DNA of 64,000 nucleotides from Elusimicrobia bacterium GWA2_61_42 (GTDB lineage: Bacteria > Elusimicrobiota > Elusimicrobia > Elusimicrobiales > UBA9959). How positions within the stretch are numbered: the stretch's first letter is position 1; each line of letters begins with the position of its first letter. The stretch is taken from positions 62,001-126,000 of the forward strand of contig MGTU01000004.1 in the NCBI GenBank assembly GCA_001799615.1, given 5' to 3'. This document shows, piece by piece, positions 30,881 through 54,816 of this stretch. The notes under the pieces were generated by a model. It saw only the letters and a program-made list of their open reading frames with translations. It was not told the origin of the DNA and ran no database searches. The position numbers and the translations under genes were made by a program.

Positions 30881-30920
30881 GTCCGGGTGCGGCCATGGGG
30901 GCCGGAACGCAAAAACGTGG
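30881..30920 (-). repeat. Partial inverted copy of the three-hairpin element next to R1
   Basis: The segment GGCCATGGGGGCCGGAACGC plus AAAAACG matches the complement of the 3' arm of the element, so a half copy lies in opposite orientation next to the full copy R1. Confidence 0.55.
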
Positions 30921-30959
30921 TCAAGAAAGCGGCCGCGGCGGCCGCACGCACCCCGAGCG

Positions 30960-31098
30960 GGGGCTGACGAGGGTGACGGCTAAGCAAAACCGTCGTTGAG
31001 CCCGCCGCTTGCATAGCGCGGCGGGCGAATACCGAGCGAGGGCACGGTGTGCCCGAGCGTGTTTTGCGTGCCGTCACCCTTGGCAGACACCGCCCCCC
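30960..31098 (+). repeat. Three-hairpin structured element, copy R1
   Basis: The closing stem pairs GGGTGACGGC (30971-30980) with GCCGTCACCC (31070-31079) and GCAAAAC (30984-30990) with GTTTTGC (31061-31067). Inside are a 9-bp hairpin (31000-31008 with 31018-31026) and GGGCAC-GGT-GTGCCC (31040-31054). The outer flanks GGGGGC and GCCCCC also pair. A homologous copy with compensating stem changes lies at 46059-46206 on the minus strand. The element ends about 80 bp upstream of mlaD, in sense orientation. The rest of this 323-bp gap holds no ORF. Confidence 0.75.
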
Positions 31099-31106
31099 CT
31101 TTTTTA

Positions 31107-31112
31107 TATAAT
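31107..31112 (+). promoter_or_regulatory. TATAAT box upstream of mlaD
   Basis: TATAAT lies between element R1 and mlaD, 49 bp before the ATG. A GATATC-7-GATATC direct and palindromic repeat follows it (about 31114-31132). No good -35 box at standard spacing is seen. Confidence 0.35.
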
Positions 31113-31161
31113 GGATATCGTATATAGATATCATTAGGGTTTCGGCGTTTTTAAAGGATAT

Positions 31162-46058: not shown

Positions 46059-46206
46059 CCGGTCGGGGCAGCCATGGGGACCGGAACGCAAAAACAGTGT
46101 CTCGCACACCGTGCTCGCACTTCCCCGCCTCGCCCTTCGCGCTTACGCAAGCTCAGGGCTCCGGCAGGGTTTTGCTAACCCGGTCCCCACGTCTGCCCCT
46201 CCGGAT
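46059..46206 (-). repeat. Three-hairpin structured element, copy R2
   Basis: On the minus strand the closing stem pairs GGGGACCGG with CCGGTCCCC (46188-46180 with 46084-46076), GCAAAAC with GTTTTTGC, and outside it GGGGCAG with CTGCCCC. Inside are a GCCCT/AGGGC hairpin containing GCTTGCGTAAGC and an AGTG-GCAC-GGT-GTGC-CACT hairpin. The core GCACGGTGTGC is identical to R1. It lies upstream of pyrB in sense orientation, and nothing else occupies this 280-bp gap. Confidence 0.75.
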
Positions 46207-53701: not shown

Positions 53702-54166
53702 TTATTTTACGGTCAGCACGGAAACCTTGCGGCCCGCTTCCAGGTCAGTGTCGGGATTGAGCGGGTCCAGCACTTCCTGCCCGTCTATGCGGCAGATGTA
53801 CCTGTATTTTCCCGGCGGCAGGGGTATCAGGGCTTCCCAGCGGTTGTCCTGCTTTTTCTGCAGCACCAGGGCCTCCGGGTTCCACTTGTTGAAATCTCCG
53901 GCCACCTTTACTTCTTTGGCGCCGGGGACTTTTACCGAGAATTTTACGAAGCGCAGCTCCGGCTGGGGCGGTTCGGATTGGCGGTCGGCGCGCACGCGCG
54001 TGGGCGGCAGCGCGCCGGAGCGCGTCGGCTTCAGGATGGCCACGTTCCAGTGCCCCATGAAGCCGAAATATTTTTTTATGGCGTTGTTGAAAAGCACGCT
54101 GGGCACGCTGACCAGGGCGAACGCGGCCAGCGCCGCGGCCATCAGGACGGCCTTGCGCTCTATCAT
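53702..54166 (-). CDS. Membrane-anchored glycogen-binding (AMPK-beta/CBM48-like) domain protein
   Basis: The 154-aa product has an N-terminal membrane helix (about 6-26), a linker, and a C-terminal E-set domain of about 85 residues with KEVKVAGDFNKWNPEALVL, RWEALIPLPPGKYRYICRIDG and DPLNP. These are the sugar-contact landmarks of AMPK glycogen-binding domains (the W of NKW and of RWEA, and the KYRY strand). It should bind alpha-glucans at the membrane surface. It lies between the radical SAM gene (4-bp overlap) and the glucodextranase-like gene (6-bp gap). Confidence 0.82.
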   Translation of the reverse strand: MIERKAVLMAAALAAFALVSVPSVLFNNAIKKYFGFMGHWNVAILKPTRSGALPPTRVRADRQSEPPQPELRFVKFSVKVPGAKEVKVAGDFNKWNPEALVLQKKQDNRWEALIPLPPGKYRYICRIDGQEVLDPLNPDTDLEAGRKVSVLTVK

Positions 54167-54816
54167 GCGCCTTCCTCGTCGAGGCGCGGCCGCACCCGCG
54201 GTTCCGCGCCCAGTTTCACGGCGAGGGCCTTGAATTGTTCTATATCCACGCCGTTGCCTTCCACGGCCGTGGCGAAGGTCTCCGGCAGCAGCAGCGAGGC
54301 TTCCCGGATAAATTCTTTTACCTTTTCAAAACCGGTGGCGGCCCAGGGTTCCATGGGGCGCATCAGCGCGGCCCACTGCGCCGGGTCGGAGGTGTTCAGG
54401 CTGACGTGCACGGAGTCGATAAGGCCTTTCATCTCGGGCACCACGTTGCGGCCCCAGACGGCGTTGGCCAGCCCGTTGGTGTTCAGGCGCACGCGCGTGG
54501 CGGGAGGGATCGGGGGGGCTTTGCCGCGCTTGACCAGGCGGGCGGTGGTAAGCAGCGCTTCCAGCCGCATGGTCGGCTCGCCGAAACCGCAAAAAACCAG
54601 TTCTTCAAAAGGCGCCGCCGCCCATTCTTTGCCGGCCAGCGCTATGATCTCCGCCGGCGAGGGTTCCGCCCCGGAAAGGTCGAGGTTGCTGCCGCGGTAA
54701 TCCATCTTCCACGCGTTCTTTACGCAGAAAACGCAGGCCGTAGGGCAGCGGTTGGTGAGGTTGACGTAGAGTCCGTTCTTGTAGCGGTAAACCACGCTGG
54801 GTTTGGCGGCGTCCAT
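54163..54816 (-). CDS. Radical SAM protein (TatD-linked type)
   Basis: The 217-aa protein has the radical SAM cluster motif CPTACVFC (CxxxCxxC) in GLYVNLTNRCPTACVFCVKN, followed by FCGFGEPTMRLE, RLNTNGLAN and VHVSLNTSD. The opening YRYKNGLYVNLTNRC matches the small TatD-associated radical SAM family, usually found with or fused to TatD nucleases; no tatD is adjacent here. The reaction is unknown. It heads the minus-strand operon. Confidence 0.82.
   Translation of the reverse strand: MDAAKPSVVYRYKNGLYVNLTNRCPTACVFCVKNAWKMDYRGSNLDLSGAEPSPAEIIALAGKEWAAAPFEELVFCGFGEPTMRLEALLTTARLVKRGKAPPIPPATRVRLNTNGLANAVWGRNVVPEMKGLIDSVHVSLNTSDPAQWAALMRPMEPWAATGFEKVKEFIREASLLLPETFATAVEGNGVDIEQFKALAVKLGAEPRVRPRLDEEGA

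Follow-up and report, generated by a model that had tools for sequence, protein, structure and literature searches.

A strongly structured, dispersed intergenic repeat in Elusimicrobia and its probable mobility

Two intergenic segments of Elusimicrobia bacterium GWA2_61_42, one in front of a gene for an MlaD-domain protein and the other in front of a carbamoyltransferase gene, share one folded layout, which raises the question of whether they are structured leader RNAs of these genes or copies of a mobile repeat resembling REP/BIME sequences. Both lie in the window analysed here (64,000 nucleotides of contig MGTU01000004.1), and from our analysis of the sequence the shared layout was confirmed at the coordinates and on the strands given in the preliminary description. 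The first segment, R1, occupies 30960-31098 of the plus strand and was matched both by blastn and by a covariance model (model bounds 30956-31092, 143.1 bits). It consists of a 5' outer arm GGGGCTGACGAGGGTGACGG (30960-30979), a core (30980-31070) defined by fold and covariation, and a 3' outer arm CCGTCACCCTTGGCAGACACCG (31071-31092). Within the core, fold and covariation place an inner stem (30984-30990/31061-31067) and hairpin A (31000-31026), followed by hairpin B (31040-31054), which carries the invariant CACGGTGTG at 31043-31051. The second segment, R2, is a copy from another subfamily at 46059-46206 of the minus strand (model match C4:108063-108203, 126.9 bits), with a 5' outer arm GGGGCAGACGTGGGGACCGG (46180-46199), a core (46085-46179) supported by sequence, fold and covariation, and a 3' outer arm CCGGTCCCCATGGCTGCCCC (46065-46084), all on the minus strand.

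The outer stems read GGGTGACGG/CCGTCACCC in R1 and GGGGACCGG/CCGGTCCCC in R2, and the three adjacent differences between them are indeed all compensated, as had been claimed. The inverted half copy reported beside R1 is also real; it lies head-to-head with R1 at 30893-30922 of the minus strand and is the reverse complement of GACCACGTTTTTGCGTTCCGGCCCCCATGG, the 3' end of the R2 type. R1 is preceded by an ABC ATPase gene and followed by the MlaD-domain gene (mlaD), and R2 lies between a gene for a GDYXXLXY-domain protein upstream and an aspartate/ornithine carbamoyltransferase gene (PyrB/ArgF type) downstream. The sense orientation described for both segments holds, while the distance to the start codon is 64 bp (R1) and 76 bp (R2) rather than 80-90 bp.

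Copies in the host genome and its relatives

With R1 as a blastn query, 44 matches were found in the host genome (2.95 Mb). A covariance model built from 26 copies (138 positions, 45 pairs), a search of the kind that the preliminary description had suggested, raised this to about 70 copies of a repeat of about 140 bp, R2 included (E below 1e-5). All 32 genomes sampled from the genus carried the repeat, each of the 31 other congeners having at least 8 matches; all genomes compared are draft MAGs. Under strict filters, a scan of 295 Elusimicrobiota genomes limited the repeat to the host family, namely its own genus together with g3, g10, g12 and g13, and found none in g2, g4, g5, g6, g11 or g14, nor outside the family. 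No match was obtained in a viral contig collection scanned with the core pattern or in phage and plasmid records searched by blastn with R1. The comparison with Rfam gave no family above the gathering threshold, and no known family there accounts for R1 and R2. In the literature we found no paper linking Elusimicrobia with intergenic repeats. The repeat adds a large, strongly structured family, without an Rfam entry, in a poorly studied phylum.

A scan with organism names returned Elusimicrobia/Elusimicrobiales MAGs, unnamed bacterial MAGs and one Magasanikbacteria contig. The latter (LBTN01000004.1, 36 kb, filed under Candidatus Magasanikbacteria GW2011_GWA2_37_8) carries a copy at its end and, because its content is GC-rich, is likely an Elusimicrobia contig binned into a Magasanikbacteria MAG by contamination. 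The repeat lies at several contig ends.

Conserved fold and structural constraint

The copies share a conserved fold composed of a 20-bp outer stem in which an A.G mismatch is frequent, an internal loop, a GCAAAAC/GTTTTGC stem and two hairpins with invariant loop motifs. The loops are near-invariant (TTGC in hairpin A, CACGGTGTG in hairpin B), and GA steps stand behind the helices. Against dinucleotide shuffles, R1 folds with a z-score of -6.2 and R2 with -8.2. In an alignment of 69 distinct host copies fitted to the model, standard pairs fill 96.7% of the pair cells (75.5% in shuffles), both partners have changed in 36 of the 45 pairs, and 538 cells are doubly changed, that is, compensated, against 142 in shuffles; the covariation score is 0.51, compared to 0.14 for shuffles and at most 0.09 for slid partners. 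A further 100 copies from the congeners G005 and G014, likewise fitted to the model, are paired in 91.2% of cells with 1045 doubly changed cells versus 329, and an independent MAFFT alignment agrees, with 27 of the 45 pairs doubly changed. The selection on a paired structure suggested earlier is thus strongly supported in host, congener and MAFFT alignments, and the fold of the repeat is strongly constrained.

The complementarity of the arms could conceivably be a mutational by-product of template-switch (quasipalindrome) correction rather than of selection on the fold. Such correction agrees with changes that appear in both partners of a pair, one-sided intermediates being few, yet it would erase both the G.T pairs and the mismatch in the middle of the outer stem, which persist. 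At column 12/212, 42 of the 69 copies have A.G or G.A, flanked by conserved G:C and C:G pairs. The invariant bases in the hairpin loops and the excess of G.T wobbles over A.C mismatches (30:8 in alignment A3, 8:3 in the MAFFT alignment A2 and 101:65 in A4, fixed positions excluded) also speak against it, and we consider this explanation doubtful. The same excess suggests that the plus strand is the folded form. The plus strand also folds more stably in 68 of 70 copies, but fold energy was set aside as a strand test since it mostly reflects composition (control -6.6 versus -10.7 kcal/mol).

Nested hairpins of about 25-30 bp (e.g., GTGGAGCGCAGCTCCACTTTCTTG) occur at several positions in the core loops, as in four host copies (L021-L024; C31:24828, C27:80567, C22:52591 and C25:32761), in G005:C41:10400 and G005:C86:14970, and in L303. 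They look as if another mini-element had inserted into the repeat.

Placement, arms and cores at shared sites

The copies are intergenic and stand in either orientation beside unrelated genes. In the frame of the element, the strands of the neighbouring genes are neutral (++24, --19, -+13, +-11), counts that rest on approximate longest-ORF gene calls. Presence and absence of the repeat differ at orthologous sites; the region upstream of mlaD holds it in just 6 of the 30 congeners searched, and the interval between the GDYXXLXY gene and the carbamoyltransferase gene in 2 of 27. A structured cis-regulatory leader RNA or riboswitch of these two genes would agree with the strong covariation and with the sense orientation and similar start-codon distance of R1 and R2. 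However, the neutral orientation and the patchy occupancy of both sites exclude a conserved leader RNA for these genes; with about 70 copies by unrelated genes and inversions at orthologous sites, described below, the leader reading of the preliminary description is extremely improbable. This observation emphasizes a caution, namely that a mobile repeat can produce strong covariation in a handful of leaders.

The mlaD upstream region has a further conserved feature. TATATAATGGATATCGTATATAGATATCATT (31105-31135 of the window, and L097-L126) is retained there in many congeners amid diverged surroundings and resembles a promoter that carries an inverted-repeat operator. Other congeners retain ATATAGATATCATT behind TTGCTATTTTATA upstream of mlaD.

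Clean empty sites without arms were found in G015 (at the L016 site) and in G020 (at the L013 site). A single arm survives as a half-site at the L009 site of G015 and at mlaD in G009 (CTGGCAGACACCGC alone, without a core). The few empty sites that were read, with diverged flanks, showed no evident target-site duplication, and no precise arm-only palindrome was encountered. The arms were at first read as target-site copies, from a common TGGCAGACACCG at mlaD, a reading that was dropped because of the clean empty sites without arms. Longer flanks recur in a minority of the 166 copies from G000, G005 and G014, namely 5' CGTTCACTA in 17 (shuffled 2) and 3' ACTGGGCATCTCGCGG in 14 (shuffled 0), and may mark either a target motif or an extended version of the unit.

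We then compared arms and cores at orthologous sites by ranking the match of the co-located copy against all other copies in the other genome, in place of an ungapped arm-identity test that was uninformative because the arms were misregistered. For the host against five congeners at four sites, which were not random but were those of ten picked for distinct arms that had a same-type copy in a relative, the arms ranked 1, 1, 1, 1, 1, 2, 6, 8 and 27 of 70, whereas the core ranked 17 once and 55-65 in the other eight cases. R1 against the same-site copy of G024, where TTGGAAGACACCGC of the R1 3' arm is retained, gave the arms 1st and the core 45th of 70. Against the mlaD-site copies in G001, G002, G008 and G013, the R1 arms rank only 8th to 52nd, so these copies are probably separate insertions or replacements. 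Between G005 and G014, a top-three rank was obtained for the arms at 9 of 24 sites and for the core at 2 of 24, with 1.6 expected. Two of their sites (G005:C34/G014:C38 and G005:C53/G014:C25) and the L018 site have orthologous arms around an inverted core, the junction of the inversion being the inner end of the arms, and G005:C67/G014:C61 combines nearly identical arms with cores of different subtypes. At several, not all, shared sites, the arms thus stay with the site and drift by compensated pairs, and the core is invertible and of a genome-typical subtype.

At many other co-located G005/G014 sites, neither arms nor core are related, which indicates that turnover of whole elements occurs too. 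Taken to its limit, such turnover would mean that the same intergenic hotspots lose and regain whole elements time after time, each element with its own arms. This would account for the unrelated pairs and for the orientation of the co-located copies, 14 the same and 10 opposite in 24 comparisons (two of which share one G014 copy), as under random insertion. Nevertheless, pure hotspot turnover gives no account of sites with orthologous arms and a different or inverted core; it is contradicted at this subset of sites and somewhat unlikely overall, and a mixture is possible. In G014 (L183, 14966-15079), an inverted-repeat element bounded by GGGACGTTCTTAACTATTGGACTATT, which is probably another MITE, lies beside a terminator where G005 has a head-to-head pair.

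Alternatively, the core could move as an active cassette, excised and reinserted either way into resident palindromes by a dedicated fold-reading recombinase or transposase, with the arms as docking sites. The precise replacement and inversion of cores between conserved arms fit this, as do the single-arm half-sites. Moreover, the core subtypes have few long identical stretches in common, which makes ordinary RecA-type gene conversion hard; they are too divergent for ordinary homologous conversion. Against cassette movement stand the absence of arm-only palindromes among the sites read and the true empty sites without arms, which imply that arms also arrive with the element, as well as the search for an enzyme described below. 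We consider such mobility unlikely, and we give similarly little credence to its fuller form, a two-part system of site-resident docking arms and an either-orientation core cassette whose genome-specific subtypes would sweep through their respective genomes, with the folded single strand and a putative enzyme as guides.

Mobilisation and comparison with known systems

No mobilising enzyme was found among the two candidate domains, Y1_Tnp and RVT_1, neither of which tracks the copies. Y1_Tnp genes are present in 27 of the 32 genomes, two of them in the host genome, but a covariance model search of 31 Y1_Tnp loci found no copy nearby, and the five genomes without a detected Y1_Tnp (draft genomes) still have 25-52 copies among the matches listed. 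Mobilisation as a REP/REPIN by RAYT (Y1) transposases, which the palindromic, intergenic nature of the copies, their inverted dimers and the two host genes would favour, is therefore quite improbable for a branched element of 140 nt. In G022 (G022:C8, L107), a Y1_Tnp gene (53895-54218) lies directly upstream of mlaD, the spot that the repeat occupies in other species. RVT_1 was detected in just 8 of the 32 genomes carrying the repeat, a difference from RT-dependent retro-elements, and was undetected in the other 24, including the host and the 100%-complete G018. A scan of about 1.6 Mb for the motif pair of one subfamily revealed no long version that encloses a gene. Integron attC sites and IscB/TnpB guide RNAs were also considered and rejected, with no Rfam match and no gene alongside.

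In essence, R1 and R2 are probably copies of a non-coding, non-autonomous mobile repeat whose cores are overwritten by ectopic copying. The mobility, conserved fold and neutral orientation of the family are well supported, and for a subset of sites the data also support arms that stay with the site while cores are exchanged. The folded single strand may be the form recognised by a trans-acting machinery that copies or inserts the repeat, and such recognition would keep the arms complementary. Other copies would then overwrite the core of a resident copy, by template switching or gene conversion that takes place at the hairpin and uses the conserved short ends of the core, and core inversion would result when the two inverted arms recombine; no sequence-specific effect on neighbouring genes would be required. 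As for the exchange mechanism, we infer either ectopic copying at the hairpin or active cassette movement. With the repeat, ectopic exchange at hairpins between sequences of about 90 bp can be assayed in a natural setting.

The bcr1 repeats of the Bacillus cereus group are dispersed, with a conserved secondary structure, and by that description alone resemble the present family, although in another taxon. Mitochondrial double-hairpin elements are mobile, non-coding and made of two hairpins; they are organellar and much shorter than the repeat here, and we know of no outer site-bound stem in them. Riboswitches and cis-acting leaders differ from the repeat in that they keep the sense orientation and a constant place upstream of orthologous genes. 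Unlike MITEs, with their constant terminal inverted repeats, the copies have arms that differ between copies though complementary, and the scan above found none that contains a gene. The intergenic, palindromic enterobacterial repeats ERIC (RU-1, 127 bp) and YPAL (RU-2, 168 bp) are similar in size and setting (PMC2229807, PMC2759123), but in ERIC the terminal inverted repeats are short and fixed and the target site is duplicated (PMC2229807), whereas the arms here vary by site and a duplication was not evident at the empty sites read. CGTC-tagged palindromic repeats are likewise without a dedicated transposase (PMC3733652), and the arm here carries GACG, the reverse complement of CGTC, although within the stem opposite TGGC instead of as an unpaired terminal tag, and with a branched core. 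REP/BIME/REPIN sequences are dispersed intergenic palindromes that form inverted dimers and genome-typical populations (PMC3116915, PMC3733652). The repeat shares all of these features; in three genomes, all 23 pairs of intact neighbours spaced by up to 1 kb are head-to-head. The REP/BIME-like architecture of the preliminary description thus stands, dispersed, intergenic, palindromic and with head-to-head dimers, while a link to a RAYT found no support (0 of 31 Y1_Tnp loci); the repeat has no adjacent RAYT, occurs also in genomes without a detected Y1_Tnp, and places two inner hairpins within a long outer stem (about 140 nt), compared to the 20-40 bp hairpin of REP. Site-bound arms together with an exchanged, invertible core are unlike the usual descriptions of REPs, ERIC and MITEs, and the family is a newly recognised variant of small palindromic mobile repeats.
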